IMG/VR virus record: IMGVR_UViG_3300030060_004233
Coordinates: 1-21,061 of that record
Source: a virus
Direction: 5' to 3' (one strand)
Length of the DNA: 21,061 nucleotides
Part shown: positions 69-18,400 of the stretch, one piece after another
Layout: each line of letters opens with the position of its first letter
Position numbering within the stretch: position 1 is the stretch's first letter
The notes under the pieces: generated by a model
Told to the model about the DNA's origin: nothing
The model's input: the letters and a program-made list of their open reading frames with translations, nothing else
The model's database searches: none
Made by a program: the position numbers and the translations under genes

Positions 69-320
69 ATGTTTCAAACAGCAATCAACCTCACAGACAC
101 ACCAAGAACAGAATATAATGGATGGTCAGACTGGACTACATGGAACTGTGCGTTATGGATCGGAGGGGACGAAGGTTTTTATAACTTAGCAAAAGATTAC
201 AGAAATTACGGAGACTTCGTTGAGTGCATCAAAGAAATCTATATGGACAAAACACCCGACGGAGCAAAGTGGGATGAAGCAGACTTTGGAGAGATGCAGG
301 AGATGATGGACGAATTATAA
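69..320 (+). CDS. Small phage protein with NGW..TWN..LW motif, function unknown
   Basis: This 83-residue protein carries the pattern NGWSDWTTWNCALW followed by DEG-x-YNLA (residues 17-41). I associate this pattern with a small protein family of unknown function that is common in tailed phages (I recall the name DUF7249 but could not check it). The C-terminal half is acidic (many D/E in 60-83). There is no signal peptide or membrane segment. The start is well supported: AAGGAG at 56-61 lies seven bases before the ATG. The gene sits alone between two hairpins (8-35 and 333-350), so it is probably a single-gene transcription unit. No enzymatic residues can be named. Confidence 0.8.
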   Translation: MFQTAINLTDTPRTEYNGWSDWTTWNCALWIGGDEGFYNLAKDYRNYGDFVECIKEIYMDKTPDGAKWDEADFGEMQEMMDEL

Positions 321-332
321 ACTGTCACACAA

Positions 333-350
333 GGGGTCACAACTGACCCC
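333..350 (+). terminator. Hairpin between the first two small genes
   Basis: A perfect 7-bp stem (GGGGTCA 333-339, TGACCCC 344-350) closes a 4-base loop, CAAC. It begins 12 bases after the stop of the 69-320 gene and is followed by ATTAACCATTATAATAA, which is AT-rich but not a T run. It is most likely a terminator or an mRNA 3'-end stabiliser for the 69-320 gene. Confidence 0.65.
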
Positions 351-358
351 ATTAACCA

Positions 359-374
359 TTATAATAAGTACATA
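359..374 (+). promoter_or_regulatory. TTATAATAA-TACATA box, copy 2 (possible -10 element)
   Basis: TTATAATAAGTACATA is a 15/16 match to the box at 35-50. It ends 12 bases before the ATG at 387. It contains TATAAT (360-365) with no convincing -35. As with copy 1, a strong hairpin lies just upstream. Its use as a promoter for the 387-1518 gene pair is inferred. Confidence 0.4.
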
Positions 375-386
375 CCACAGAACAGA

Positions 387-644
387 ATGAACAAAACTCA
401 AACACTCATCAACCGCATCAAAGAAAAAGAGTCCTTTTATGACGTTGCTTTTCTATGTGAAGACTTTGAAACTTTTGAAATTGAAGTTGCAGAGTGGGGA
501 GTAGATCACGCAGGGGGAGTTGACTTTGATGATCCAGAAGTAGACCGCAAACAAATGGATGCGTTCTTTGCCTCTTTCGGTTGCACCCCAGAGAATCCAC
601 ATCCTTGCAGTAAGTATGCGACAGCAGTTTATCAAGGTGCGTAA
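387..644 (+). CDS. Small acidic protein, function unknown
   Basis: I do not recognise this 85-residue protein. It has a short basic N-terminus (MNKTQTLINRIKEK), then an acidic central region rich in D, E and F with a DFDDPEVDRKQ segment, and a C-terminal stretch with two cysteines (FGCTPENPHPCSKYA) that could bind a metal or form a disulphide. There is no signal or membrane segment. No Shine-Dalgarno is visible (CACAGAACAGA precedes the ATG). The TAA stop at 642-644 is one base before the ATG of the ligase-like gene at 646, so the two are almost certainly co-transcribed and probably translationally coupled. Base composition matches the downstream gene rather than the AT-richer structural genes. 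Confidence 0.7.
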   Translation: MNKTQTLINRIKEKESFYDVAFLCEDFETFEIEVAEWGVDHAGGVDFDDPEVDRKQMDAFFASFGCTPENPHPCSKYATAVYQGA

Positions 645-645
645 T

Positions 646-1518
646 ATGAAGAACTTACACATTGAACACCCAGAGGACACAATCTTAACAGGGGATCTAT
701 CTGTACTTGAAGCATTTGAATCAAACAATCATTACTCAGTTAAGATTGACGGATCGCCCGCAATCGTATGGGGAACTAACCCAGAGAACGGGAAATTTTT
801 TGTCGGCACGAAGTCCGTATTTAATAAGAGAACCCCAAAAATCAATTATACGAATGAGGATATTGAACGCAATCACGGGAACAACATTGAACTAAGTGGC
901 ATTTTGCACAGGTGTTTTAATTGCTTACCCCGTACAGACAGAATTTTTCAAGGAGACTTTATTGGGTTCGGTGGTTACAGAGATTACAAACCAAATGCAA
1001 TTAGTTACACATTTACCGAAGTTCAGAACACGGGAGTAGTCGTTGCACCTCATACAGAGTACACAGGGGAGACAATGAAAACAATGACAGCAGCACCCTT
1101 ATTGGATAAGTTGGGAGAGGGTTTTGTTCAACCTGATGCGTGGTTGTCTGAGTTGGGTGCAGGGCATAACATCTCACAGTTAATTCAGTTTGCCCGTCAG
1201 ATTGCTACACTTGTGGACTTTGCCACAGAGAAGGAGGCAAAACAAATTAAAATTGATCTCAATGCGTACATTCGTGACGGAGATGAGGTTGTTGCGGAGG
1301 AGTTCGCAAACTATCAGTTGGTGCGGTTGTGGTTACTTGTGAAGAAAATCAAGGAGGAGTTTATGCTCAGAATGAGAGACAATTTTGATGCTGATTGCTT
1401 CTTAGGTAATGAATACATCACAGGAGAAGGTTATGTAATGAGTGGACTTCACGGAGTCTTTAAGTTGGTGGACAGAGAGACCTTCTCTTATTATAACTTT
1501 AATATCATTCGTTCGTGA
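646..1518 (+). CDS. Putative covalent nucleotidyltransferase (RNA/DNA ligase-like fold)
   Basis: The protein has 290 residues. I chose the ATG at 646, one base after the previous stop, over an in-frame ATG at 559 that lies deep inside the preceding gene. The ordered motifs of the covalent nucleotidyltransferase superfamily (ATP-dependent ligases and capping enzymes) can be seen. KIDGS at 33-37 fits motif I, with Lys33 as the candidate adenylated lysine. GTKS at 54-57 follows, FQGDFIGFGG from 101 is motif III-like, EGYV at 261-264 fits motif IV, and FKLVDR at 272-277 fits motif V. It begins with an IEHPED.ILTGDL segment that I recall from T4-like marine phages, usually annotated as hypothetical. 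No OB-fold domain follows motif V, so it would be a minimal enzyme. Substrate (RNA nick, tRNA, DNA) cannot be told. A non-ligase nucleotidyltransferase is possible. Confidence 0.65.
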   Translation: MKNLHIEHPEDTILTGDLSVLEAFESNNHYSVKIDGSPAIVWGTNPENGKFFVGTKSVFNKRTPKINYTNEDIERNHGNNIELSGILHRCFNCLPRTDRIFQGDFIGFGGYRDYKPNAISYTFTEVQNTGVVVAPHTEYTGETMKTMTAAPLLDKLGEGFVQPDAWLSELGAGHNISQLIQFARQIATLVDFATEKEAKQIKIDLNAYIRDGDEVVAEEFANYQLVRLWLLVKKIKEEFMLRMRDNFDADCFLGNEYITGEGYVMSGLHGVFKLVDRETFSYYNFNIIRS

Positions 1519-1529
1519 TCACAGCAGTT

Positions 1530-1550
1530 GGGGGGTTAAACGCCCCCTTA
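1530..1550 (+). terminator. Terminator after the nucleotidyltransferase gene
   Basis: A run of six G (1530-1535) pairs with C5 (1543-1547) around a short GTTAAACG-type loop, 11 bases after the stop of the 646-1518 gene. TTATATAAAAA follows. The GC-only stem and its position support a transcription terminator closing the first gene block. The tail is weak. Confidence 0.65.
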
Positions 1551-1562
1551 TATAAAAACGCA

Positions 1563-1634
1563 CTGGGAACCTAACCTACAAAGTGTTACGGAAGAGAGAT
1601 ATAAGTTGCATTTCATATATAAAAATTTTCCCAG
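1563..1634. other. Intergenic stretch with a long-range inverted repeat
   Basis: In the gap before the gene at 1653, CTGGGAA (1563-1569) is complementary to TTCCCAG (1628-1634), with about 58 AT-rich bases between. This could fold the leader of the downstream mRNA, but seven base pairs over that distance is weak. No convincing -35/-10 pair was found here. Confidence 0.25.
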
Positions 1635-1652
1635 GTATAGATACAGTCAGAA

Positions 1653-1847
1653 ATGAAAAATGAAATCCACTACATGAAAAAAAATCCCGCAGAAATTTCT
1701 AGCATCATAGAGACCGATCCTGTTACTGGGGAATACTATACTATCATACCCGAATGGATAATGAATGAAATGAATTGGTACGAAGGAACACCAATTAATT
1801 TTAATTCGGATGGAGATGAAGTAGTCATCACAGACAAGGATGAGTAA
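1653..1847 (+). CDS. Small AbrB/SpoVT-like protein
   Basis: This 64-residue protein has the sequence pattern ETDPVTGEYYTIIPEWI...MNWYEGTPINFNSDGDEVVIT. It resembles the short swapped-hairpin (AbrB/MazE-like) proteins of phages: a 'D..TGE..v.iP....e..gW.eGt.l.....gd.v.i' arrangement of strand, helix, strand, strand. Such proteins bind DNA in cellular AbrB/MazE families. A DNA-binding role here is inferred only from resemblance, and no partner toxin is adjacent. An alternative start at 1674 would remove seven residues; neither start has a Shine-Dalgarno. The stop overlaps the next ATG (1840) by eight bases, indicating coupled translation. Confidence 0.65.
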   Translation: MKNEIHYMKKNPAEISSIIETDPVTGEYYTIIPEWIMNEMNWYEGTPINFNSDGDEVVITDKDE

Positions 1848-1986
1848 GAAAGAAGAATCCAAGTATTATGCAAAAGACCGAATGGAATATTTTCGAGAAT
1901 TTCATCGTGTAATTGCACCACCAGTTGTCAGAAAATTAGATGATGACAACGATTCCCTCGATAAGAATGTAACAAAAGAAATATAA
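1840..1986 (+). CDS. 48-residue charged protein, function unknown
   Basis: The ATG overlaps the end of the AbrB-like gene by eight bases, and the upstream ACAAGG may serve as a weak ribosome-binding site. The translation starts MSKKEESKYYAKDRMEYFRE and ends DDDNDSLDKNVTKEI. It is strongly charged, with a Lys/Tyr-rich helical N-terminus and an acidic tail. There are no cysteines and no membrane segment. The overlap arrangement and intact frame are the main support for it being real. I do not recognise a family. Confidence 0.5.
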   Translation: MSKKEESKYYAKDRMEYFREFHRVIAPPVVRKLDDDNDSLDKNVTKEI

Positions 1987-2000
1987 AGCAAACATTAAAC

Positions 2001-2029
2001 TTGTAAATAATTAAGATTAGTGATATATT
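2001..2029 (+). promoter_or_regulatory. Possible sigma70-type promoter upstream of the 48-residue gene at 2074
   Basis: TTGTAA (2001-2006, 4/6 match to TTGACA), a 17-base spacer and TATATT (2024-2029, 5/6 match to TATAAT) lie 44 bases upstream of the ATG at 2074. The AT-rich background makes chance matches likely, but the spacing is ideal and there is a gene-free gap here. Confidence 0.4.
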
Positions 2030-2073
2030 TGATAAGAGAGAAGTTCATATAAAGGTACTATACAGGAGGATTT

Positions 2074-2220
2074 ATGAGTGGTGACTCAGGATTAAATGAA
2101 ACTATTGTTTTCTATAGTTCAAAAATGACTATGGCAAAGGCAATAGTTTTAAAACATAAAGGAATTGTATTAGATCATAAGGTAATGAAAGCAATCAAAG
2201 AAACCGAACAAAAGAGATAA
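2074..2220 (+). CDS. 48-residue basic protein with strong ribosome-binding site
   Basis: A consensus AGGAGG at 2065-2070 lies three bases from the ATG, the best Shine-Dalgarno in the window, so a short gene is well supported. The product begins MSGDSGLNETIVFYSSKMTM and is followed by AKAIVLKHKGIVLDHKVMKA and IKETEQKR. It looks like a small alpha/beta protein with Lys/His-rich middle and C-terminus; no signal peptide or transmembrane helix. The family is not recognised. It may be transcribed from the candidate promoter at 2001-2029, separately from the glycosyltransferase gene that has its own promoter. Confidence 0.6.
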   Translation: MSGDSGLNETIVFYSSKMTMAKAIVLKHKGIVLDHKVMKAIKETEQKR

Positions 2221-2230
2221 AAGACTCTTA

Positions 2231-2259
2231 TTGACATTGTATAGATAATAGAGTATTAT
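2231..2259 (+). promoter_or_regulatory. Near-consensus sigma70 promoter for the glycosyltransferase gene
   Basis: A perfect -35 hexamer TTGACA (2231-2236), an optimal 17-base spacer and TATTAT (2254-2259, 5/6 match) are followed 22 bases later by the ATG at 2282. This is the best host-type promoter in the window. It implies expression by unmodified host RNA polymerase, unlike the late-type octamers in front of gp25 and gp8. Confidence 0.65.
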
Positions 2260-2281
2260 ATAATTATAATTGAACAATAGT

Positions 2282-3055
2282 ATGGCAAAGGGATTTACTG
2301 TTAAATCAGCAGCTGCGACTGCAAAAGCAAAGGCAAAAGCATCAGAAGAACCACAGTGGGATTACGATAAAGCAAAAAGAATGGTAGCAGGTAAGACAAT
2401 TGTATTTTGTCTACCAGGTCGAGGAGTATCATATACATTTCTAAAGAACTTTGTAACTCTATGCTTTGATCTTGTACATAACAAAGCAAGTATACAAATA
2501 TCACAAGATTATTCATCAATGGTAAACTTTGCCAGATGTAAGTGTCTTGGTGCAAATGTTCTTCGTGGTCCTGATCAGTTACCTTGGGATGGTAAGTTAA
2601 AGTATGATTATCAACTATGGATAGACTCTGATATTGTTTTTAATGTTGAGAAGTTCTATCAACTTGTGTTAATGGACGAAAAGATTGCATCAGGTTGGTA
2701 TTGTACAGAAGATGGAAGAACAACTTCAGTCGCTCACTGGTTAGATGAGGATGACTTCAAAGGTAACGGTGGAGTGATGAACCATGAAACCATCGACTCA
2801 ATCTCAAAGAGAACAAAACCATTTACAGTTGACTATGCAGGTTTCGGATGGTTACTGATCAAACACGGAGTATTTGAAGACAAGCAAATGCCTTATCCTT
2901 GGTTTGCTCCGAAGATGCAGGTATTTGAATCTGGTGCTGTTCAAGATATGTGCGGAGAAGATGTCTCATTTTGCTTAGATGCAAAGGAGGCAGGATTCCG
3001 TATTATGTGTGACCCTCGTATTCGTGTAGGACATGAAAAAACAAGAGTTATATAG
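2282..3055 (+). CDS. GT-A-like glycosyltransferase
   Basis: The product has 257 residues when started at ATG 2282; an in-frame TTG at 2270 is less likely. After an Ala/Lys-rich linker (residues 7-23), the body opens with TIVFCLPGRGVSYTFLKNF, a typical first strand and loop of nucleotide-sugar GT-A folds. It then has WIDSDIVF with a DxD metal/nucleotide-sugar motif at Asp115-Asp117, GEDVSFC at 225-231 (the acceptor-side ED motif) and a terminal GHEKT at 250-254 whose His could be the late metal ligand. The protein should therefore be a metal-dependent glycosyltransferase. Its acceptor (host surface glycan, phage DNA base or virion protein) cannot be told. No signal or membrane segment is present, so it should be cytoplasmic. 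The 61-residue gene overlaps its 3' end by 23 bases. Confidence 0.75.
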   Translation: MAKGFTVKSAAATAKAKAKASEEPQWDYDKAKRMVAGKTIVFCLPGRGVSYTFLKNFVTLCFDLVHNKASIQISQDYSSMVNFARCKCLGANVLRGPDQLPWDGKLKYDYQLWIDSDIVFNVEKFYQLVLMDEKIASGWYCTEDGRTTSVAHWLDEDDFKGNGGVMNHETIDSISKRTKPFTVDYAGFGWLLIKHGVFEDKQMPYPWFAPKMQVFESGAVQDMCGEDVSFCLDAKEAGFRIMCDPRIRVGHEKTRVI

Positions 3056-3218
3056 TATTTCTCACAAAGGTAAGATACTCTTTGAAGATCTTACCGAAGA
3101 GGAGTACTTTGAGAAAATGCAAGATCTTGCAGACCAATTTTTCGCAGATGGATCACCGCATCCACTCGAACTTGTAACCGATGTAAAATTTGAAGAATCT
3201 AATGGCAAAAACATTTAA
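3033..3218 (+). CDS. Small acidic protein of T4-like marine phages, function unknown
   Basis: This 61-residue protein is encoded in a frame overlapping the end of the glycosyltransferase gene by 23 bases. The pattern YSISHKGKILFEDLTEEEYF then MQDLADQFFADGSPHP looks like a small conserved family I associate with cyanophages (Y-x-I-S..G...F-x-DLT..EYFE). It is mostly helical by appearance and acidic in the middle. The overlap with genes on both sides suggests translational coupling in a glycosyltransferase - 61 aa - 45 aa - 229 aa run. The function is unknown. Confidence 0.7.
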   Translation: MKKQELYSISHKGKILFEDLTEEEYFEKMQDLADQFFADGSPHPLELVTDVKFEESNGKNI

Positions 3219-3339
3219 CACTGGAAATACTATCCAAAGTCATCCGAAAAAAACTCGACAAGGAAACGGAAAACACTCGAAATATGCCGCTACATCCCGT
3301 AACTCGGCTCGTAAAAGATCTAGAGGGCAAGGAAAATAG
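3202..3339 (+). CDS. 45-residue highly basic protein without acidic residues
   Basis: The translation begins MAKTFNTGNTIQSHPKKTRQ and ends ATSRNSARKRSRGQGK. Twelve of 45 residues are Lys/Arg and there is no Asp or Glu, so it should bind nucleic acid or acidic protein surfaces. The ATG overlaps the previous gene by 17 bases, and its TAG stop (3337-3339) is directly followed by the ATG of the next gene, a very tight arrangement that supports it being real. I recall similar 'MAK.F..GN...SHPKKTRQG' peptides in cyanophage genomes. It may be a minor head or DNA-associated protein, but this is inference. Confidence 0.65.
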   Translation: MAKTFNTGNTIQSHPKKTRQGNGKHSKYAATSRNSARKRSRGQGK

Positions 3340-4029
3340 ATGTCTACGTTGATTGCGAATCTACCTTCTTATGAAGTATGGGTAAGAAAAGAGTATTTGA
3401 CCGATCATAAGAGTGGTCACGGTGAATTTGTAAAGGGAGTCTGGGTATCTGCGAAAAGTATACCTGGTCGTGCGTTTTATTTTGAAACTTATTTACCAGA
3501 ATATGCTGCAATGTTTGATAAATTGCCCATTTCTGCGTTTACAACCGACCCAGAGACTCCTACACCTGATATGACACTGCATAATTTACAGTTTTGGAAC
3601 TGTATGGACTATGGTGTCGTTGCAGTTCAGAAGCAATTTATCGGTTCAATGCATTTTGAAGTGATGACAAGAGACTTTGGCAACCAAACAGGCACTTATA
3701 TTTGTACTTTAGACAATTATCACGAAAGTATTGATGCAATTGACTACTCTACAAGTGAACAACCTGCCGAACATAAGTCTCATAACCTCTTAGAGTTGGA
3801 CAATGGACAGTTTTGTCTTTATCCAAACAACAGAATGAGGATTTACGACAACAGTATTACACCAGAAACACCAAAAGTGCCTGATTTTAAGGTTTCAACC
3901 GTATATTATCAAGTTGAAAACGGTCATGACCGTGATGGATTGGGTTCAGAAGAGAATTATTTCTGGAAAACAGCAAAAGAACGTAAAACTGGTAACGTAG
4001 AAATACAAATTGAACCAGAATTAGGATAA
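3340..4029 (+). CDS. Conserved-type phage protein upstream of gp25, function unknown
   Basis: The protein has 229 residues and its ATG abuts the preceding stop. It is rich in aromatic residues (YEVWVRKEY, FYFETYLPEYAAMF, LQFWNCMDYGVVAVQKQF) and looks like a mixed alpha/beta soluble domain with a long Pro/Asp-rich linker near residues 175-190 and a polar C-terminus. There is no recognised catalytic motif and no signal peptide. I do not recognise a T4 counterpart. It is translated in one run with the small genes to its left but is separated from gp25 by two late-promoter octamers, the first of which overlaps its own stop codon. This places it at the boundary between the accessory and virion modules. 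Confidence 0.7.
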   Translation: MSTLIANLPSYEVWVRKEYLTDHKSGHGEFVKGVWVSAKSIPGRAFYFETYLPEYAAMFDKLPISAFTTDPETPTPDMTLHNLQFWNCMDYGVVAVQKQFIGSMHFEVMTRDFGNQTGTYICTLDNYHESIDAIDYSTSEQPAEHKSHNLLELDNGQFCLYPNNRMRIYDNSITPETPKVPDFKVSTVYYQVENGHDRDGLGSEENYFWKTAKERKTGNVEIQIEPELG

Positions 4030-4032
4030 ATA
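4025..4032 (+). promoter_or_regulatory. T4-type late promoter octamer, distal copy before gp25
   Basis: GATAAATA matches the T4 late consensus TATAAATA at 7/8 and overlaps the TAA stop (4027-4029) of the upstream gene. T4 late promoters need only this octamer at -10, read by the phage sigma gp55 with gp33 and the clamp gp45. A second copy lies 29 bases downstream. Confidence 0.45.
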
Positions 4033-4053
4033 ATATCATTTACAAAAAAGTGT

Positions 4054-4061
4054 CATAAATA
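4054..4061 (+). promoter_or_regulatory. T4-type late promoter octamer, proximal copy before gp25
   Basis: CATAAATA is a 7/8 match to TATAAATA, 22 bases upstream of the gp25 ATG. The distance suits a short 5' leader. Together with the exact match before gp8 it supports late, phage-directed transcription of the baseplate genes. Confidence 0.55.
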
Positions 4062-4083
4062 AAACAGGAAAACTCTTGTTTAA

Positions 4084-4485
4084 ATGGCAATAAAGCGGAT
4101 ATCGAGGGCATTTAAGGACATAAGTTTGTCATTTACCCCTCATCCAGTCACAAAAGACCTTACAATTCTCAAAAATGAGAATGCAATTAAGAAGTCTGTA
4201 ACAAATTTAATACAAACTATACCCACTGAGAGGTTTTTCAACTCAGTATTGGGGTCTGAGGTGCGTGATAGCCTATTTGACTTTGTAGATTTTGGTACTG
4301 CATCGGTAATTCAGAACCAAATAGAAATTACACTTGAAAACTTTGAACCTAGAATTGATAATGTAAGAGTTGAAGTAGAACCAAGACCAGATACGAATGA
4401 ATTTGAGGTTGCGGTATTCTTTAATATTGTAGGACAGGACATTCCCACACAAGAATTCACATTCATGCTCGAAGCAACAAGATAA
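4084..4485 (+). CDS. 25: Baseplate wedge protein gp25
   Basis: This 133-residue protein (T4 gp25 is 132) has the gp25 pattern: NAIKKSVTNLIQTIPTERFF, then GSEVRDSLFDF, a variant of the usual 'l.t..gER.f.p.fGs.l...lF' core. It is followed by C-terminal beta strands DNVRVEVEPRPDTNEFEVAV and a final FTFMLEA. gp25 joins gp6 and gp53 to form the wedge core and provides the handshake that starts tail-sheath assembly. The TAA stop is directly followed by the gp6 ATG, giving the gp25-gp6 order of T4-like phages. No good Shine-Dalgarno is seen (AGGA at 4066-4069 is too far). Late transcription is suggested by the two octamers just upstream. Confidence 0.92.
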   Translation: MAIKRISRAFKDISLSFTPHPVTKDLTILKNENAIKKSVTNLIQTIPTERFFNSVLGSEVRDSLFDFVDFGTASVIQNQIEITLENFEPRIDNVRVEVEPRPDTNEFEVAVFFNIVGQDIPTQEFTFMLEATR

Positions 4486-6423
4486 ATGCCTTTTACTAAG
4501 TTTACAAACCTCGATTTTGATCAAATTAAGACTTCAATTAAGGATTATATCCGTGCAAACTCCGATTTTACGGATTTTGACTTTGAAGGATCTAATTTTT
4601 CGGTCTTAATTGACACTTTAGCATATAATACCTATATTACAGCATTTAATTCCAATATGATTGTGAATGAGTCCTTTTTAGACTCTGCAACAGTTCGTGA
4701 AAATGTAGTTTCACTTGCTCGAAACATAGGATATGTACCAAAATCAAGAACAGCTGCTCAAGCAACAGTTTCTTTTGATGTAACAACTGGTAGTAATACA
4801 CCAACTCTTACTCTTCAAGCAGGTTTGGTATGCGTAGGTGCACAAAATGACTCATCATATGTGTTTTCCATACCAGAATCAATTACAACGACCACAATAC
4901 AAAATTTAGACGTAAATGGCAATATAATAAGCAGTACAGGATCGTTTAATGACATTAAAATATATCAAGGAACCTATCTAACAAAAACATTTACTGTTGA
5001 TGGTTCATTAGATCAAAGATTTTTACTCGAAAATTCATTTATAGACACTTCAACTATTAATGTTTACGTAAAAGGTGCTGCAGATACTGGTTTAGGTAGA
5101 GAATATCGTAAAGTTGATAATATTCTCAATATAACAGATATATCAGAAACATATTTAATACAAGAAACCACAGATGAGAGATATGAACTTCTCTTTGGTG
5201 ATGGAATATTTGGTAAAAAACTAGAAAATGATTCAGTCATAACAGTATCATACATTGTCACAGATGGTGTTGAAGGTAACGGTCCTTCATCATTTACCTA
5301 TGCAGGTAGTGTAGTATCATCTACAAACCAAATATCATTACCGTCAGGTACACCATCAATTACAACCATCTCAGCGGCATCTAACGGGGGTAATATAGAG
5401 TCAATTGATTCTATTAAGTATTTTGCACCTAGATTGTATTCATCACAGTACAGAGCAGTTACAGCAAGAGATTATGAGAGTATAATACAACAAATATATC
5501 CAAACACTGAATCTGTTTCAGTCGTTGGTGGAGAGGAACTTGATCCACCCAAATTTGGAACGGTATTCATTACAATCAAACCTAAGAATGGTGAATTTGT
5601 ATCTGATTTTGATAAAAATGCAATACTGTCCAATTTAAAGAGTTATGCTCTTGCAGGAATAAATCAAAAAATACTAGACTTAAAACTATTATATGTCGAA
5701 TTAGATTCATTTGTTTATTTTGATGCATCAAAGGTAACAACTGTATCTGATCTAAAAACAAAGATAACAAATGGATTACTTACTTATGGATCATCAACTG
5801 ATATTAACAAATTTGGTGGAAGATTTAAATATAGTAAGGTGTTGAATGTTATTGATAAGATTGATGATGCGATTACTTCAAATATTACAAGAGTTAGAAT
5901 TAGAAGAAACCTAAGAGCATTAACAAATCAATTTGCTCAATATGAATTATGTTATGGTAATAGATTCTATATCAATCCAGAAGGTAAAAATATAAAAAGC
6001 ACTGGATTTACGATTCAAGGAGTAAATGATATGGTGTATTTTACAGATATACCAAACAGAAATCCTGATGGTACATTAGATGGAAGTGGAAAGGGTATTT
6101 TAGCTATTGTAAAGGGTGATGCTGAATTATCTCAAGGACAATTGGTAGTTGCTTCTGCAGGTATTGTTGATTATGCACATGGAGAAGTAATCATATCAAC
6201 GGTTAATATAACATCAACTCAAAGATCAAATAATATTGTGGAAATTCAGGCATTCCCCGAATCAAATGATATTGTAGGATTAAAAGACTTGTACTTGAGT
6301 TTTGCTGTTGGAGATAGTGCCATAAATATGGTTAAAGACACTATTACATCTGGTGAACAGATTTCTGGTGTTGGATTCAAGGTTACATCAAGTTACGCAA
6401 ATGGAGCATTGGTAAGAGGATAA
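4486..6423 (+). CDS. 6: Baseplate wedge protein gp6 (baseplate J-like)
   Basis: The product has 645 residues, close to T4 gp6 (660). The N-terminus carries the typical gp6/J-like opening (FTDFDFEGSNFSVLIDTLAY, then NSNMIVNESFLDSATVRENV and RNIGYVPKSRTAAQATVSF), seen in proteins that form the inner ring of contractile baseplates. The middle has ERYELLFGDGIFGKKL and PRLYSSQYRAVTARDYESII, both classic baseplate_J features. gp6 dimers link the six wedges around the hub. The gene abuts gp25 and is followed after one base by the giant gp7-position gene, as expected for wedge assembly order. Confidence 0.92.
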   Translation: MPFTKFTNLDFDQIKTSIKDYIRANSDFTDFDFEGSNFSVLIDTLAYNTYITAFNSNMIVNESFLDSATVRENVVSLARNIGYVPKSRTAAQATVSFDVTTGSNTPTLTLQAGLVCVGAQNDSSYVFSIPESITTTTIQNLDVNGNIISSTGSFNDIKIYQGTYLTKTFTVDGSLDQRFLLENSFIDTSTINVYVKGAADTGLGREYRKVDNILNITDISETYLIQETTDERYELLFGDGIFGKKLENDSVITVSYIVTDGVEGNGPSSFTYAGSVVSSTNQISLPSGTPSITTISAASNGGNIESIDSIKYFAPRLYSSQYRAVTARDYESIIQQIYPNTESVSVVGGEELDPPKFGTVFITIKPKNGEFVSDFDKNAILSNLKSYALAGINQKILDLKLLYVELDSFVYFDASKVTTVSDLKTKITNGLLTYGSSTDINKFGGRFKYSKVLNVIDKIDDAITSNITRVRIRRNLRALTNQFAQYELCYGNRFYINPEGKNIKSTGFTIQGVNDMVYFTDIPNRNPDGTLDGSGKGILAIVKGDAELSQGQLVVASAGIVDYAHGEVIISTVNITSTQRSNNIVEIQAFPESNDIVGLKDLYLSFAVGDSAINMVKDTITSGEQISGVGFKVTSSYANGALVRG

Positions 6424-6424
6424 T

Positions 6425-9400
6425 ATGATAACCACTGGAATTGATAAGAGAGTCAAAGTCCAACAGATAATCGAAAATCAAATACCTGAATTTTTATTAT
6501 CTGAAAGTCCAAAGGCAGTAGATTTTTTAAAACAGTACTATATTTCCCAAGAATATCAGGGAGGTCCGATTGACTTAACTGATAATCTGGATCAGTATAT
6601 AAAATTAGATAATTTAACACCCGAAGTTGTTGTTGGTGAAACTAAGTTAACAAGTGGTATTACAACCACTTCAACAACTATAAATGTTAGTAGTACAAAG
6701 GGATTTCCTAATGAATATGGTCTTTTCAAGATTGAAAATGAAGTCATAACATATACTGGAATTACAACTAATAGTTTTACTGGTTGTATTCGTGGTTTTA
6801 GTGGAATTACAACATATCATGCAGAAAATAATCCAACAGAATTAATTTTTACAGACTCAGATGCAATTAATCATGATAATGATGCAACTGTAGTTAATTT
6901 AAGTGCATTATTTTTAAAAGAATTTTATAATAAGACCAAAAAACAACTTACACCTGGTTTAGAAAACTCTAAATTTGTTAATAATTTAGATGTAAGCAAT
7001 TTTATCAAAAATTCAAAATCTTTATACCAATCAAAAGGTACAGAAGAGTCATTTAGGATTTTATTTAATGTCTTATACAATGAAAATCCTAAAGTTGTTG
7101 ATTTAGAGCAATATTTAATAAAACCATCATCTGCAGAGTATATAAGACGAGAGATTGTATTAGCAGAGGCATTATCGGGAAATCCACTAAATTTAGTGGG
7201 ACAGACAATCGTTAAATCAACCGACTCTGCAACTAGAGCTTCAATATCTGAAGTTGAACCCATAACAAGAAAGGGAAAGGTATATTATAAAATTGCATTA
7301 TTTGTTGGTTTTAATGAAGTAGACCTAATTGAAGGAACTTTTAACATTCCAGGTAAAACAAAGTCAATTGGCAATGTTTCAGCAGGTTCTTCCGTAATTA
7401 CAGTTGATTCTACTGTTGGATTTGGTCAAACTGGAACTTTAGTTTCAGGTATTAGTACTAATATTTACTACAGTGACAAAACAGTCAATCAATTTCTAGG
7501 ATGTCAGAATATTATTGATAATATATCATCTACTGATGATGTAAGAACAAATGAGTTTTATTTTGGATATGAAAATGGAGATTTAAGTAAAAAAGTTGAA
7601 GTAAGATTAACAGGTGTATTATCTAAATTTGTTCCTACCTCAGATATTCGTTTATTGACAGATGGTGAAAAAATAAGTGTTAGAAATGTTGGTGAAAAAA
7701 TATTAAATCCTACTGAAAGTAGAACAAAAAAACAAATTTTTGCAAATTCATGGATTTATAATACATCATCAAGATTTTTAATAAAAAGTATATCTGGTTC
7801 TAATCTTGTCTTATTCACAAAAGATATTGATAAATCAAGTTTAAAAGTTGGTGATAATATTGAAATATTGTTTAGAAATGAAGAAACTCAGATAGCAACA
7901 GGAATTGTAGGTAATATTGATAAACCAACAAGCACTATTTCTATTAATAATCTAACAAATGCATCAGGAATAACAGTATTCCCAGATCCAAATAGAGAAT
8001 ATGATCTAAGAAGAGTTATAAATCGTGCTTTTAGTAACACAGCAGATGTAGAATTTGGTAATAATGTTTTAACTAGTGATATTACTAATGTTTACAATGA
8101 ATCAGATACTAATTTTTATGTTGCATCCAACTCTTTACCATCATATCAAATAACAGCATCTTTACCAAAAGCAATATTACCAAATGCTATTGCAGGAAAC
8201 GAATTACCTCAATCTGGTTATGATCCAAATACACTTAAATATAATATTTTATCATTCCCAAGTCCAGTTCCATTTATAACTGGAGATGAGATATTCTATA
8301 CAGCACAAGGATCTGTATTACCAAATTTACCAGAATCTTCGTATTTTGTTGAAGTATTAAGTAATCAAAACCAAATACGTCTTTATAGATCAAGATCTTT
8401 TATACCTATAGGTGATTATGAAGAGTTTGAAGCATTACCATCGGGTTCAGGTACTCATACATTTTCATTAGTTGGTATTCTTGAGCAAGAAATAGCAGCT
8501 CAAAAACTATTTAAAAAGTTTCCTCTCAATCCAAATTTAACAAATTCTTCATCAGTACTAACAACACCAGGCACCACTGGTATGTTGATAAATGGAGTTG
8601 AGATAAGAAATTACAAATCTGATGATAAAATATTTTTTGGACCACTAAGTAAAATTGATTTACTTAATGGTGGAAGTAATTATGATGTTGTAACACCACC
8701 TAACATTCAATTATCATCTCCTGGTGTAGGTAATACCACTGCTTTGATAAGACCAGTTGTTACTGGTGAAGTAAAAGAAGTTCAAGTTGATCCACAAGAT
8801 TTTGATATCCAAAAAGTGATAACAGCTACTATTGAAGGTGGAAATGGATCTGGTGCAATACTTGAACCTATATTATCAGAAAGAAGAAGAGAAATATCAT
8901 TTGATGCAAGATTATTAACAGAATCAGGTGGTGTTGACAATGTTGATGAAACCATTACATTTTTAGATAATCACAATATTGTTAGTGGTCAACCTCTTGT
9001 TTATGATAGAAACAATAATCCACCTTTAGGTATAGGAACAGTAGGTAATGATAGTGGTACATCTGTTGTAGGATTAGGAACAACTACTTTAGTTAATGCT
9101 GCGACATACTACCCATCAGTTATTAATCCAACTACTATTAAATTGTTCCAAACAGAAACTGATTTTAATTCTGGTATTAATACTGTTGGTTTTACAACTT
9201 CTAATAAAATTGGTATTCATAAATTTAAACTTTTAAGTGATCAAAAAACATTAAGTGATATTAAAGTTATAGACGGTGGAAGTGGATATCAAAATAGACA
9301 AGTTTTTGTTAAACCAACTGGTATAAACACAATTACAAATACAATCCATTTTGATAATCATGGATTTAATCAGGGTGATAAAATTGTTTATTCAACAGCA

Positions 9401-12400
9401 GTTGGAATTGGATCAACATTACCAACAACAATTACAGGTTTAACTACATCAACAGGTATAACTACAACTACCACTTTCTACCAAGTAATAAAGGTAAATG
9501 ATAGTGCATTTAGAATTGTAAATGCAGGTCTTGGTGGAACTATTAAATCTGAATATAATAGAAGAGACTATTTAAAGTTTTCAGATAAAGGAACAGGATT
9601 CCAAGTATTTAAATACCCTGATGTTAAATTAAATTTAAAATATGAACTTTCTAATACTTCAGTTGGAGTTATTACTGCAACACCTGTGGTAAGAGGTTCT
9701 ATCACTGATGTTTTATTATATGAAGAAGGATCAGGATATGGTTCTGATATTTTAAATCTTGAAAAATCTGTAGCTGTAACTGTAAAAACAGGAAAGGAAG
9801 CACAATTAAAACCAATTGTAACTGATGGAAAAATATCTTATGTAGAAGTACAAACAAAAGGTCGTGAATATGAATCTGCTCCAGACTTAGAAGTAGTTGG
9901 TATAGGAACTGGATTAGGTGCAAAATTAAGGGCTGTTGTATCTGATGGAAGAATAACAGATGTTATTATATTAGATGGTGGATTACAATATCAACAAGAT
10001 AAAATTGATATTAAAGTTGTCCCACCAGGATCAGGTGCTAAATTAGAAGTTGGTACCAGAGGTCTTATAGTTAATACTTTTGCAAGATATGACATTGAAG
10101 CATTAGTAGAAACTAACAATAAATTAGAATATTCATTAGTTGGATACTCTACTCAAATAGGTAGTGATACTTTTGGAGATACTGGTGGAGGTCACTCACC
10201 AATTATTGGATGGGCATATGATGGTAATCCAATATATGGTCCATATGGATATAGTGATCCAAATGATGATAACTCTGCAGTTAGAATTTTAAATAGTGGA
10301 TATGTATTAGATACATCTAATGTTGTTAATAGACCAAGTGGATTTAGTAATGGATTTTTTGTAGAAGATTATCAATTTACAAACGCAGGTGATTTAGACG
10401 TTCATAATGGTAGATATGGTAGAACACCCGAATATCCTAATGGAATATATGCATACTTTGTGGGTATCAATACAAATTCATTACTACCTGTTTTCCCATA
10501 CTTTATAGGACATTCATATAGATCAAATCCATCTACAGAAAATTTCAATGTCAATCAAAATACTTTTGATTTTGATAATTCAAGTTTAATAAGAAATAGT
10601 TATCCATATAAAGTATCTGATGAATTTGCTGATAATGATTTTATAATCGAATCTAATGAAATTACATTACAATCATCAATTGTTGAATCAACAACATCAG
10701 GTTCTATTGACTCTATTAGTATTATTAATACTGGTGATAATTATGAGGTAGGTAATGTTGCTACTTTTGATAACACAAATACTAATGGTGGTGGTTTAAG
10801 TGTATCTGTAAAGAGTGTAGAAGGTAAACAAGTTCTATCAGTTGAAACAACTGTTGATACATATGAAAATACGGTATTTGTGTGGAGAAACTCTGAACAT
10901 GTTGCTGCATATATTTCAACTGCTCCAAATTTAAATGGTGGTGATAATGTTATTATTTCTGGTTTAAGCACTTCTTCAATTAAAGGATTGACAGGAACAC
11001 ACCAAATAGGAATTAATACAGCTCAAACAATTGTATATCAAGATATACCCAACTCATCTACAACAGGTATTGTAACTGATATTTACGTTACGAATATACC
11101 AGAACATATTTCAGTTGGTAGTAGCATTGGTATTGGAACTGAAAAACTGTTAGTTTTAAATACATTTAACGAAAATAATATAATAAGAGTTAGAAGAGGT
11201 GTATCATCTGGTATTCATACAGTATCAACCTCAGTTAGTTTAATACCAAATTATTTTAATATACCACTTAGAACTAAGTTATTTGATTCAAGTGTAAAAG
11301 ATCAAGTATATTTTAATCCTCATGAGTCTGTAGGGGTTGGAACAGTTGTTGGTTTAGGATCAACTGCAACATCAACATTAGGTGATTTAATTAGTGTGGT
11401 GTCAACTCCAACTCGTAGTATACGACTACCAAATCATCCATTTAAAACAAATCAAAGAGTTACATTAACAAAACCTAATGTGGGTTTTGCATTAACAGTT
11501 TCTAAAGACGATGGAGTAACAACATTTAATATACCTGAAAGTGGAAATAGTCAAGATATATTTGTAATAAGAAAATCAAAGGATTATATTGGAATAGTTA
11601 CTCAAGTTGGTTTAACAACATCTTCTGATGGTTTATCATTTGTAGGTGATACTACAGTTGGTTCAAGTAGTTTTGAATATCTTTTAGAATCAAATCCAAC
11701 TCAAATTACAGGAACTCTTCAAAGAATAGATGCAGTTGTTTCTGTATCAACAGCACATAATTTAGTTGATGGTGATATTGTCAATTTGTCATTAACACCA
11801 AGCGCATCAGTAGGTATTGGTACTTCTTCATCTATTGATCTTAGATTTGATGAGGGAACACAAGCAATATTGGTAAATCCAATATCTTGTCCTACAAGTG
11901 GAGTTACTACATCTACAAATACATTTAATATAGTTGAACATAATTTAGAAACTGGTGATAAAATTAAATATTCATCAACAAATGTATCAGATGGTTTAGT
12001 AAATAATGAATCCTATTATGTTTTTAAAGTTGATGATAATAATTTTAAATTAGGTGAAACCTTCAGTGATGTTACTAGTAATCCTGCTAGTGTAATAGAA
12101 TTGAGCACAACTGGAGGGGTTCATGAATTTTCATTAATCAATCCTGAAATATCAGTTCTTAGAGATAATAATCTAGTTTTTGGAGTTGGTCATTCTTCAT
12201 TAAATGGTTATGAGTTGAATATTTTCTACGATCAAGATTATAAGAATCAATTTGTATCGGTAGGTAACACTACAAACTTACAAGTTATAGGAGTAGGAAC
12301 AGTTGGAGTAACTTCAACAGCTACACTTACATTAAATTATTCTAGTGATAATCCATCGGTTCTTTATTATAATCTTAAAAAATCTGGTTTTATTAGCACA

Positions 12401-15400
12401 TCAGATACTGATGTTCAAAATTATAATAAAATTAATTATATTGACAGTAAGTATAGTGGACAATATAGTATATTTGATGTCCCTCCTGTAGTTGGAGCAT
12501 CATATACTAACTTTACTATTTCTCTAAACGAAGTTCCAGAAAAATTATCATACGCATCAACAGAAACTAATGTTCTAAAATACACAACAAAATCAAGTAG
12601 AGCTAAAGGTCCTATTGATAAAGTTGGTATTGATTTTGGTGGTGTTGGGTATGATAGTTTACCATCTTTTGTAAGTATCGCATCTACACAAGGAACAAAC
12701 GCAACTTTATTACCAGATTCTACAACAATTAATAGAGTAGATGATGTTAGAATAGTTAATCCTGGATTTGAGTATTCATCCGACCCTACTCTAAAACCAG
12801 AAGCATTTGTATCACCAGTTATATCAATTATTAATTCAAATACTATTTCATCAGTTGAAGTGGTTGATGGTGGAAAAAATTACACAACAGTTCCTGATTT
12901 AGTAATAGTAAATCCAATCACAGGTCTTGAAGATAAATCTGGTGCAATAATAGCTGGTAGATTAAATGGTAGTTCTTTAACAACAGTCGATGTAATTGTA
13001 GCACCTAAAGGTCTACAATCGGTAACTCATAAAGTATTTACAATTAATAACAGTAATGGATCTACAGTTAGCAAACTAGAGTATAATCCATTATCAGGTA
13101 TAGCAACGTGTACACTTGTTACACCAGTACTAGGATTTTCAACTGCACCATTCTCAGTAAATGAAGAGATATTTGTTGAGGGTCTTCAAAAATTTGGAGA
13201 TACTGGAACTGGATTTAATTCTTCTGATAATGGTTATAATTTCTACAAATTAACATCTGTAAGTAACACAAATCCAGCTACAATCGAATTTGATTTATCA
13301 AAATTTACTACGAATGCTGGTATTGCAAAAACAGTTCAAAATTCGTATGGTGTTGTTATAAGTAAAAATGATTATCCTGTCTTTGAAGTTGAACAAAAAA
13401 TATCAAAATTTAGTATTGGTGAAAAATTATTAGCATTCGTTGGAACAGAATATGTACCAGTAGATATTATAGTTTCAGAATCAACAAATGAATTTATAAA
13501 AATTCAAGAGGAAACAGCAGGTGCCTTTAATTTAGTTACAGGACAATTAATAAAAGGATTTGTTTCTGGTAACATTGGTAAAATAAATACTATCTCCAAA
13601 AATAGTGGTATTTTTGAAGTAAATTATTCACTTAGACAAGATCAAGGTTGGAATGATAATATTGGTAAATTAAGTCAAGATTATCAGGTCATACCCGATA
13701 ATGACTATTATCAAAATTTATCTTATAGTGTTAAAAGTAAAATTACATATGAAGAATTAGTTAATCCAGTAAATAGATTACTTCATACTTCTGGTTTAAA
13801 AAACTTTGCTGATGTAGGAATAACTTCTGCAACTAGTGCTGGTATTACAACATCAAGTTTTACTGATGTGCTTGCACTTGATTTCATAGATGAAAAAAGA
13901 GTAGATACAATTAATAATTTTGATTTTGCTTTAGATATTGATACAGTTGAAGGTAAATCTAAATTCTTAAAATTAAGAAATACAAAACTATCACCATATA
14001 TTGAATGTAGAACTAATAGAGTTTTAGAAATAGATGATATTAGTGGATTATTCTCCAATACTGCATCATCATTAACTCAATTCTTAGATCTATCAGTTAA
14101 CACTCGTTATGCCACTTTCTTAATTCAGGCAAGAAATCCAAATAACAATAACACTCAAATATCAGATATAATTTTATATAAAGATGATTCAGACGTATTT
14201 ACAGCTGAGAGAGCAAAAAATCATACTACATTATCTGAACTTGGTGAAATTGTAGGTCAAATTGATACATCAGATAATATTAGTTTAAAATTTACTCCAG
14301 ATGATCCTGATAATAATGATTATGATCTAAAAATATTAGAGACATCATTTAATACAAATCTAACAGGTATTGGAACTCAATCAATAGGTTTCATTAATCT
14401 ATCTGGTATAAACACAACTGTATCTACAGCAACGACATCTGTTATATTATCAACTAATGTTAATAATACAGAGGCATTGTTTGCATCAATCGAAGTCAAT
14501 AACGTCACGTCAGATGCAACTAATTTTGTAGATTTATATTTAACTCACGATGGGACAAATTCATTTATTTCTGAATTTTATGCGGATAGCATAGATGGAC
14601 CAACTTCTAATTTTATTGGTACATTTATTTCAAATATTGAATCAAATATATTGACATTATCATTTGAAAATGATCAAGCAAATGAAGTATTGGTAAGATC
14701 AAGAGTAATTGGTATTGGGACAACTGCTGCAGGTATTGGAACATATAGATTTAAATTACCTGGTCAATTAGATGGCACAGAGAAGACAAGTAGATTTGAG
14801 TCTAATTTCTCAAATGTTTCTACATCTTCCACTATTGCATCCTTTACAGAAAATGAAATTTCTTCATTAAAAGGATTTGTAAGAGTATCAAGTGGTTCTA
14901 CTAGTGCATTGCATCAGGTTTTAGTTGCACATGATTCAACTGATGCTCATACAGTACAGTATCCATTCTTGTCTATAGGAAGCACATCAGGTATTGGAAC
15001 ATTCTCATCAACAATTGTTGGAAATGATTTAAATCTCAACTTCCATCCAGATCCATTGTATAGTGGTGGAACTAATAGTGTTGAGGTACAAACATTTACT
15101 GAAGCATTTAATTCAAAAACTGATTTATTAAACATACCACCTGATCTACAATACGGAACAGTTACTGAGTCATTATCATTTGCACAATATGATGCAATTA
15201 ATGGAACAAGATCTAATAAAACAAGTTTTGTTCTTCAAAGTGATTCAAAACCAATATTCCAAAAACAATTTAATCCATCTGACACAGCAACATTAAATGC
15301 AGAAACTGGTGTATTCACAATTATTGATCATTTCTTTGAAACTGGTGAGAGATTAGTATATAATCCTGGTTCAACTTTTGAAGGAATAACATTATCAGGA

Positions 15401-18400
15401 ATTGCAACTGCTGGTGGTGCTTTAGGATCAGAAGTATATGCAATTAGAGTTAATAAAGATACTTTAAAAATTGCAAAAACACACCCAGATTCATTAGCTG
15501 GTATAAGTGTTACATTTACTAGTGTTGGAACTGGTAATGCCCATGAATTTGAAATGTTTAAAAAGAATGAAAAGGCATTATTATCAATTGACGGTGTAAT
15601 TCAATCTCCAATAGCATTTACACCAATAACTACTGATTTAGAATACAATATAAACAATTCAGCAACAACATTTAGTGTTACTGGATTATCATCAATAACT
15701 TCAGGTGATGTTATCAAAATTGATGATGAATTTATGAAAATAACTACCGTTGGTCTAGGAACTACATCAGTTGGACCAATTACAGAATCGGGTTCTGTTA
15801 ATTTATTGGTAGTTGAAAGGGGATCTATTGGATCTGCTGCAACAAGTCATTCATCTGGAGCAACAAGTAGATTATTCTCAGGTGGATATAATATTGTAGA
15901 TAGCACTATTCACTTTACTGAAGCACCTAGAGGAACTAATACTACTCAAAAAACACAATCAAATCTTGATCCTCTTAAATCTAAATTTAATGGTAGGGTA
16001 TATCTTAGACAAGATTATAGTACAAATACAATCTTTGATGATATATCAGATAGTTTCACTGGAATTGCAGCTACACTTCCAGTAAAAGTTGGAGGTGCAA
16101 GTACATCTGGCATACAAACTGGTAGCACATTGCTTTTATTAAATGGAATATTCCAAACTCCATCAACATTTAATAATTTGGGTAATAATTATGAGTTTGC
16201 AGAATCTGGTGGAGCAAGTAATGTTGTATTTACTGGTATAACATCATCTAATGGTACAAAAATTGTAAGTGATACAGATGTAAATCAAAATCAACTACCA
16301 AGAGGTGGTGTAATTGTTTCATTGGGATCTACTGGTGGATTGGGTGTTGCAAATCTTGCACCTGCAAAAGTTAAAGCAACTACAAATGGAAGTGGTGCGA
16401 TTATAGGTATTGTTGGTCTTAATACAACTGGCAATTCATTTGGTATTAGCACAGCATCATTTAATCATTTAACAGGTCAACTTCAGGTTACAACTTCAGG
16501 AAATCATGGATTTAGAAACATTAATGAATTTGTAAGATTTGATGGTCTAACATTTACTCCATCATTAACAATACCAGCAGATAAGTCATTCAGTGTAACT
16601 GGAATTTTATCAGCAACAACATTTACAACTGACATTGGTGTTCAGTCACAAGCACGTACTTATGTTGGAAATGGAACTGCATTTGAGTATTTGGCAGATC
16701 TAACATTCGGATCTGGATATCGCAATCCAGTTTCTGTTGCAGTTACAGATTTATCTGGAAATGGAGCAAGTGCAGATATTACAGCAGAAGTTGTTTCTAA
16801 CACACACGTATTTGTAAGTGCAGCAACCAATGCTGTTACAGTGACTGGAGGTTCTCCTATAACTCCTACAGGTGCTACTTATGATCCAGCAACAGGAAAT
16901 TTAGTAATTACAAAGGCATCTCACGGTTTAACCACAAGTGATACAGTTGGTCTTGCAACTAACTCATTTGTATTCAGATGTGCTCAAGATAACTTCTCAA
17001 CTGATCACTCATATCCTCGTTCTGGTCCTACCCCAAGTTCAGCTGGTGGAGATCCAGCACACAACGCAACTTTAGCAATAACTGCAAAAACAACTAATAC
17101 ATTTACTGTAAATGTTGGTATTACAAATACAGGTACAGGTGGTGCACTTAAATTTAACATTAACAATGCAGGTACTGGGTATACACAACCACAAATTCAA
17201 GTTTCTGCACCATCATATACAAATCTACCAATTACTGGAGTTTCAAGAAGAGGTATAGGATCTACAACTGATACAGGAACAGGTGCAACAATATCAGTTG
17301 AAGTAGGTGCTGCAAATACTACAGTAGGACTAGGATCAACTTCATTTGTAATTTCTAACTTCAAACTAGAAAACAATGGATACAACTTTAAAGTTGGAGA
17401 TGTATTTAAACCTGTTGGATTAGTAACTGATAGATTTTTAAATACTTCACAATTAATCAATGATTTTGAATTAACAGTTACAGATGTATTCAGAGATCAA
17501 TATTCATCTTGGAACTTCGGACAATTTGACTTTATTGATTCTATTAAAGATCTACAAGATGGTCAAAGAAAGAGATTCCCAATACTCTTTAATTCAAATT
17601 TACTCAGTTTTGAAGTAGATGAAAATAATCCAGATTCATCACTCATTGATCTTGATGCGTTACTACTAATATTCGTTAATGGTGTTGTTCAAGATCCAGG
17701 TGATGCTTACACATTTGATGGAGGTACATCATTTGAGTTCTCACAAGCACCAGATCCTGAAGATATAATTGATATTTTCTTCTATCAAGGAACAGCAGGT
17801 GTAGATTCAGTTCAAGTTGCTGCTGGTTCTTCTGTATCACCAACTGTGAAAACTGGTGATGTGGTTCAGATCTTTAAATTAAATAATGATAGTGGAATTA
17901 CAACAACTCAAGATCAAAGAACAATATTTGCTATTTCAGCATCTGATGAAGTTGAAACTAATTTATATACAGAAGCAGGTGTTGATGAAAGAAACTTTAA
18001 ACCATTAACTTGGATAAAACAAAAAGTTGATAAAAAAGTAAGTGGTGAAATTGTATTTAAAACTAGAGATTCATTAGAGTCACAAGTTTATCCAACAGCA
18101 AAAATTATTGATGATATAACAACCACTGGTAATGAATTATATGTTGATAATGCAAAATTCTTTAATTATGAGGAAGATTTCTCCAATTTGGTCATAGGTA
18201 GTGTTGGTGGACTAATTGTTGGATCTACTAATCCAGTTGCAGCAGGATTAACAGCAATTGTATCAGTAGCTGGTACAATAACATCACTTTCAATAACAAA
18301 TGGAGGTAGTGGTTATGTTGGATCTACAACTTCCATCTCCATATCAGCTCCTCATGCTATAGGAGTTGGTGTAGGAACGACTGCAACCGCAACCGCAACC

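Follow-up and report, generated by a model that had tools for sequence, protein, structure and literature searches.

The gene at positions 646 to 1,518 of the viral DNA encodes a member of the DUF6267 family, and we propose, at a probability of about 45%, that its product is a covalent adenylyltransferase of the ligase superfamily that is reduced to the catalytic domain and seals nucleic-acid ends, RNA being slightly favoured as the substrate; the long form of the family may be packaged in virions, and the short form, to which the present protein belongs, would act within the cell. The window (the whole stretch of DNA that was analysed, 21,061 nucleotides) makes up most of a virus record of 22,469 bases, and its source, judged by the baseplate genes, is a T4-like phage. 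By sequence comparison the protein is a member of a known uncharacterised family (DUF6267, PF19782; phrog_455; cyanophage cluster T4-GC 71): it matched PF19782 at E 2.7e-74 (251.2 bits against a gathering score of 27) and phrog_455, whose function is not annotated, at E 1.5e-107, and the T4-GC 71 label was found on DUF6267 genes in annotated cyanophage records. The names 'DUF6267' and 'PHROG 455' were not found in the literature that was searched by text. An upstream in-frame ATG at 559 gives a longer frame; the relatives align from the ATG at 646. A promoter scan around the gene gave scores at the level of shuffled sequence, and a terminator-like site was not found there. The features of the window are as follows, with conservation counted in an alignment of 410 DUF6267 proteins.

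387 to 644, plus strand: 85-residue protein of phrog_9580 (E 2.9e-18), function not annotated, ending one base before the DUF6267 start codon
646 to 1518, plus strand: DUF6267 protein, 290 residues, short-form clade, predicted single-domain ligase-like nucleotidyltransferase (Pfam, phrog, AlphaFold2 and VIA)
658 to 678, plus strand: N-terminal H-x-x-H-x-E-D, residues 5-11, a family hallmark (H5 409/410, H8 409/410, D11 406/410)
742 to 753, plus strand: motif I, KIDG, residues 33-36 (K33, D35 and G36 410/410; Lys33 codon at 742-744)
949 to 957, plus strand: motif III position, Q-G-D, residues 102-104 (Q102 409/410, D104 410/410)
1051 to 1062, plus strand: H-T-x-Y, residues 136-139, a family hallmark (H136 410/410, T137 408/410, Y139 408/410)
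1426 to 1437, plus strand: motif IV, EGYV, residues 261-264 (E261 and G262 409/410)
1459 to 1470, plus strand: motif V, FKLV, residues 272-275 (K273 409/410; one lysine only)
4084 to 4485: gp25-like baseplate gene (Pfam/phrog match)
4486 to 6423: gp6-like baseplate gene (Pfam/phrog match)
19072 to 20640: gp8-like baseplate gene (Pfam/phrog match)

Three other frames of the window deserve mention. A single open reading frame of 4206 residues, very large for this place, lies at 6425-19045 between the gp6-like and gp8-like genes. The product of 3340-4029 carries the ferredoxin label of phrog_3704, and a Pfam ferredoxin domain was not found in it; that of 2270-3055 belongs to phrog_1574 and weakly matches a glycosyltransferase (phrog_34859, E 9.7e-5).

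The first-pass annotation had described motifs I, III-like, IV and V in that order in the 290-residue frame, and we found them at the positions described; their numbering is that of the ligase literature. Motif I (K-x-D-G) and motif IV (E-G-h-h) of the covalent nucleotidyltransferase (ligase/capping) superfamily are present in DUF6267. At motif III the glutamate of the superfamily is replaced by Asp104 in all 410 proteins, a conservative change, and at motif V the K-x-K pattern is absent: position 275, the site of the second motif V lysine of ligases, is valine in 394 and isoleucine in 15 of the 410. Because of these two departures we call the family ligase-like and do not file it as a ligase. 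Val264 is kept in 404 of the 410, and the sole exception for Glu261 and Lys273 is a truncated frame, L105. The protein set was drawn from 441 eligible loci (the window, L001-L080 and L098-L457), which gave 404 complete proteins of at least 270 residues, with 37 dropped. In all of 122 relatives, whose identity to the window protein ranges from 26 to 80%, Lys33, Asp35, Gly36, Gln102, Asp104, Glu261, Gly262 and Lys273 are conserved. K[WYI]DG[AS]P was itself the search pattern in two of the collection scans, so that the relatives found by these were selected for motif I, and the other scans ran without motif I, two of their patterns containing the QGD stretch. Conservation across such a range of identity places the motif pattern beyond chance. 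In the 122-row alignment, with a mean column identity of 36%, 24 columns are invariant, including H5, H8, K33, D35, G36, P38, K56, Q102, D104, N117, Y121, H136, Y139, E261, G262 and K273. We know of no ligase counterpart of the N-terminal H-x-x-H-x-E-D motif, and the invariant H5, H8, D11, H136 and Y139 are, to our knowledge, unusual for ligases.

The aspartate of motif III and the single lysine of motif V could also be read as marks of a pseudo-ligase, in which the fold is kept for binding or as a scaffold and catalysis is lost; the location of the gene, close to those for the baseplate in the window and within a few genes of one for a head protein in phage Syn1, would suit such a role. However, 409 or 410 of the 410 proteins retain Lys33 and each of the other motif residues, despite the mean column identity of 36%. 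Thus the active site is not decayed in pattern, and we consider a pseudo-ligase very improbable.

An AlphaFold2 model of the window protein, built from 122 sequences (pLDDT 95.1, pTM 0.89), predicts a single ligase-type nucleotidyltransferase domain. A model lacking this fold had been named as a refutation of the first-pass reading, and on that point the prediction agrees with the reading. In the model Lys33 ends the strand 29-33, Gln102 to Asp104 lie inside the strand 100-108, Glu261 just precedes the strand 262-267 and Lys273 is inside the strand 270-275, so that Lys33 and motifs III-V would be placed within or next to strands, as they are in ligases. The earlier observation that the chain stops 17 residues after motif V is correct when counted from Lys273, and the model agrees with the absence of an OB-fold: a helix (277-286) follows motif V, with no OB or other second domain. 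The 50 matches listed by VIA-align 2 are all RNA, tRNA or DNA ligases. The best among those listed, Naegleria RNA ligase (6vt3; Z 8.4, 3.6 A, 175 residues), is borderline, as a Z under about 8 can reflect a common arrangement and 8.4 is barely above the middling range; T4 Rnl2 (Z 7.7) and a trypanosome editing ligase (7.2) come next, and an archaeal RNA ligase, a fungal tRNA ligase and DNA ligases are listed lower. NAD+-dependent ligases are not among the matches listed, which by VIA's own caution excludes nothing. A Foldseek search of the PDB with the model gave a best E of 0.028, and 21 viral models in BFVD matched at E <= 0.001, several of them titled 'Cytidyltransferase-like domain-containing protein'.

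Sequence profiles gave a different answer. Alignment of the 122-row profile by hhalign with T4 Rnl2 relatives and with a mixed RNA-ligase set gave probabilities of 0.2-0.3%, the same profile had no match in the PDB, and a phmmer search of the PDB with the window protein gave chance matches only; neither PF09414 (T4 Rnl2-type RNA ligase) nor PF01068 (ATP-dependent DNA ligase) matched the protein. Homology between DUF6267 and RNA ligases was thus not demonstrated at the profile level, and the fold assignment rests on structure prediction and the order of the motifs. The original proposal of a ligase-like nucleotidyltransferase is thus supported by the predicted fold, the VIA matches and the invariant motif residues in one domain; of the comparison with RNA ligase families that had been suggested as a check, the structural half agreed and the sequence half showed no link. 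With the caution due to a catalytic-domain fold seen in a predicted model alone, DUF6267 likely has the fold and the active site of the ligase superfamily.

With Naegleria RNA ligase (6vt3, 5cot) and T4 RNA ligase 2 (2hvq, 1s68) DUF6267 shares the predicted catalytic-domain fold and the order and spacing of motifs I, IV and V. In the numbering of the PDB titles, the residues of the Naegleria enzyme that we take to be those of the motifs are K170, D172, E312 and K326; the distance K170-D172 is 2, as here, and E312-K326 is 14, against 12 here. Unlike both enzymes, DUF6267 has no second domain after motif V, has aspartate for glutamate in motif III and a single lysine in motif V, and has the extra H-x-x-H-x-E-D and H-T-x-Y motifs; to T4 Rnl2 it has no sequence similarity. 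The superfamily fold is likewise common to T4 gp30 (PF01068), from which DUF6267 differs in lacking the OB domain and the N-terminal DNA-binding domain.

When 50,697 phage records were searched by tblastn with the window protein, 472 matched at E <= 1. By name, 371 of these are Synechococcus, 61 Cyanophage and 24 Prochlorococcus entries; the remainder include phages of Pelagibacter, Methylophilales, Vibrio, Stenotrophomonas, Xanthomonas and Pseudoalteromonas. The T4-like helicase gp41 was found in 376 Synechococcus and 61 Cyanophage records. Since these counts are close (371 vs 376 and 61 vs 61, as tallies by name and not of matched accessions), DUF6267 is near-universal in T4-like cyanophages by name. 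With a vibriophage query, relatives were not found in the viral contigs. In Synechococcus phage metaG-MbCM1 (JN371769, 145353-146252) a gene with DUF6267 is labelled ribonucleotide reductase, apparently in error.

This distribution is relevant to a gap in the replication genes of these phages. According to the part of PMC2984593 available to us, homologues of the DNA ligase gp30 were not found in cyanomyoviruses, which have either distant homologues or none, and in T4 the host ligase can substitute. Similarly, the available part of PMC7824862 describes most jumbo phages of subgroup 2.1, its cyanophage group, as lacking any known DNA ligase while encoding a standalone ligase DNA-binding domain. 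We scanned 22 whole phage records (18 DUF6267 records, T4 and three jumbo phages) with ligase profiles. PF01068 was not found in 13 of the 18 (marine cyanophages, HTVC008M, Melnitz-3 and C48C1), and was found in T4, the three jumbo phages and the other five (Vibrio 2.275, DLP_6, XaC1, XG4 and S-CRM01); PF01653 was found in none of the 22, and thus in none of the 18; PF09414 was present in T4 and three of the 18 and absent from 15. In a tblastn search with T4 gp30, Synechococcus was not among the ten commonest organism names, the tenth having 53 records, which is an upper bound and not a count. Furthermore, gp41 is followed within a few genes by DUF6267 in nine annotated records (Syn1, S-CRM01, S-CAM4, S-MbCM6, syn9, S-RIM8, S-PM2, HTVC008M and Melnitz-3). 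DUF6267 is therefore a candidate for the gp30 gap in cyanophages, and one may go further and regard it as their missing DNA ligase, replacing gp30 at Okazaki fragments and nicks, possibly together with the separate ligase DNA-binding domain. We consider this stronger version rather unlikely, because the short forms of P-SSM2, S-SM2 and S-SSM7 are not beside gp41, the host enzyme could serve as it can in T4, and the five records named above carry both DUF6267 and a PF01068 ligase; the role of the family is thus not merely ligase replacement.

The family has a short and a long form, which we divided at 345 residues; the short form, including the window protein, lacks a middle insertion of the 400-residue long form. 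A FastTree phylogeny built from the 122-row alignment groups all 75 short forms in a single clade that excludes every long form (support 1.0), and places the window protein in a subclade of 13 leaves (support 1.0). All 12 DUF6267 phage records that were searched whole encode an adenylyltransferase of the PPAT/NMNAT fold, and this family-wide co-occurrence is reported here for the first time. Among the 12 are the short-form phages P-SSM2, SynMITS9220M01, S-SM2, S-SKS1, Bellamy and S-SSM7, in which this partner is unlinked to DUF6267. In long-form phages a gene annotated as cytidyltransferase often follows DUF6267, and it does so too in S-MbCM6, syn9 and S-RIM8. Among the first 240 viral-contig loci, 115 long-form ones extend 2 kb or more downstream of DUF6267, and in 89 of these the partner follows on the same strand; it was linked in none of the 59 short-form loci. 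The S-RIM/syn9-type short forms, which were sampled later, do adjoin the partner, and thus only the part of the short clade that holds the window protein is unlinked; in 13 records of that clade, all fragments (the window's own and 12 contigs), no partner gene was seen (0/13). Single proteins that join DUF6267 to the partner occur at L449 and L455/L456 and, in phage S-PM2, as S-PM2d138. The L455 and L456 products (1828-4638 and 288-3104, 936-938 residues) have DUF6267, the adenylyltransferase and a C-terminal stretch resembling, by eye, a PD-(D/E)XK nuclease; in L455 Pfam found only the first two domains, and both contigs come from a MAG labelled Firmicutes. Another fusion, L129:8476-10821, joins a Pol-beta nucleotidyltransferase domain to a PPAT/NMNAT-like adenylyltransferase.

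A model of the partner (pLDDT 91) matched phosphopantetheine and nicotinamide-mononucleotide adenylyltransferases (Z 14.4; Foldseek E 8.1e-6), and its invariant residues include G-R-x-x-P-x-x-x-G-H. Of the 532 phage records in which the partner was found, 374, 61 and 24 bear cyanophage names; jumbo phages infecting enterobacteria and Pseudomonas have it as well. In two of three such partner-bearing jumbo phages examined (288-352 kb) DUF6267 had no match at E <= 1, and the third, MIJ3, had a weak one (E 0.0026); we therefore do not regard these phages as carriers of a divergent DUF6267. A search with the L457 protein reached no jumbo phage of enterobacteria or Pseudomonas.

Ligase-type and PPAT/NMNAT-type enzymes both join AMP to 5'-phosphates. 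The constant presence of the partner in the 12 records may accordingly point to adenylyl transfer by the pair without joining of strands, as in NAD+-linked chemistry, the addition of a 5'-adenylate or NAD-type cap, or protein AMPylation; the extra invariant residues H5, H8, D11, H136 and Y139, the absent second domain and the absent motif V lysine would suit an acceptor that is not sealed. Set against this, the nearest folds are those of sealing ligases, and jumbo phages carry the partner with no detectable DUF6267 in two of the three examined, so that the partner can have a role of its own. We regard such non-joining chemistry as unlikely, and end joining as a plausible reaction of DUF6267, with about even chances.

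The long forms differ from the short ones also at the N-terminus. The available text of PMC3012670 describes the role of the capsid targeting sequence at the N-termini of T4 internal proteins, and we used a strict pattern modelled on that sequence in internal proteins II and III. It matched 121 of 185 long forms (44 of 75 at 70% redundancy) and 1 of 219 short forms, the start of that one resembling a long-form start; the N-terminus of the window protein lacks it. As controls, shuffled long-form N-termini matched at 3.6%, and minus-strand open reading frames of the same loci at 0/64. The pattern was also found in 132 of 842 plus-strand frames neighbouring the long forms, and thus is a feature of the region no less than of the family; such a tag-rich neighbourhood suggests a region rich in packaged proteins. 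Among partner genes it matched 107 of 176 overall and 37 of 106 in long loci. In Syn1 the partner gene is labelled GC 190, and a cyanophage 'citidylyltransferase', T4-GC190, is described in the accessible part of PMC3037559 as a cyanophage core protein detected in virions. By analogy the long-form DUF6267 may be packaged in virions too. The likeness to T4 internal proteins II and III thus concerns the long forms and the partner, whereas 218 of 219 short forms, including the window protein, lack the tag. A replication ligase would not need a capsid tag, which is a further point against a simple replacement of gp30.

Neighbours of the long form include other enzymes. In HTVC008M a P-loop kinase (zeta/AAA_33) lies between DUF6267 and the partner, and other long loci have an adenylate kinase, a HAD-family phosphatase or a Pol-beta nucleotidyltransferase fused to the partner. 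In the 68 long loci that have 4 kb or more of flanking sequence on each side, the partner was present in 54, the P-loop kinase in 15, Pol-beta in 11, HAD in 8 and adenylate kinase in 5. Kinase, HAD phosphatase, Pol-beta nucleotidyltransferase and ligase, but not adenylate kinase, are the phage RNA end-repair classes given in the part of PMC7824862 available, in which the ligases described are Rnl1, Rnl2 and RtcB and not DUF6267. The same classes thus adjoin the long form in some loci, but most loci have the partner only, and we reject the idea that kinase, phosphatase and Pol-beta nucleotidyltransferase form a fixed operon with DUF6267 in general, as such an arrangement would cover a minority of the 68. 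RNA repair that counters tRNA cleavage, suggested for the gene at the outset, is one of three live options.

The first-pass annotation had also paired the gene with the 85-residue protein encoded one base upstream, and proposed to look for the pair in relatives. In the clade of the window this pairing holds: the phrog_9580 gene lies upstream of DUF6267 in each of the 38 loci, drawn from L001-L052, whose upstream sequence reaches 500 nt or more; in five of them (L035, L036, L037, L039 and L045) it is about 0.7-1.1 kb off and non-adjacent. It does not extend to the family. Homologues occur in 33 isolate phage records, and where both positions were seen they lie elsewhere, about 100 kb from DUF6267 in S-SSM5, P-SSM7 and Syn19 and about 6 kb in S-SSM7. 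We therefore reject the small protein as a family-wide functional partner; tight synteny confined to a single clade says little about function.

In the reading that we prefer, end sealing by a ligase-type catalytic domain, Lys33, the predicted AMP-accepting lysine, would take AMP from ATP or NAD+ and pass it to a 5'-phosphate end, and the enzyme would then seal 5'-phosphate and 3'-hydroxyl ends in nucleic acid; a partner or the substrate could stand in for the absent second domain. As the substrate, RNA ends are given a slight preference, because the nearest folds are RNA ligases and because kinase, HAD and Pol-beta genes adjoin a minority of the long-form loci. Long-form proteins with the capsid-targeting N-terminus would possibly be packaged and injected, and the short form of the window, since it has no tag, is expected to work inside the cell during infection.

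T4-like cyanophages are widespread marine viruses, and the available part of the review PMC2984593 leaves an unrecognised DNA ligase in them possible. One broader interpretation, which is tentative and as a whole unlikely, is that DUF6267 is an unrecognised ligase family that gives T4-like marine phages their apparently missing ligase activity together with the PPAT/NMNAT-fold adenylyltransferase; in the long-form clade both proteins would be loaded into the head by T4-type tags and injected, and the short form of the window, from the untagged clade, would act inside the infected cell. Because DUF6267 combines a predicted ligase-like fold with an active site that looks intact and a constant partner, the question of the cyanophage ligase comes down to a straightforward test for adenylylation and sealing. 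Should the tags function as they do in T4, the long form would in addition be an injected nucleic-acid-joining enzyme.
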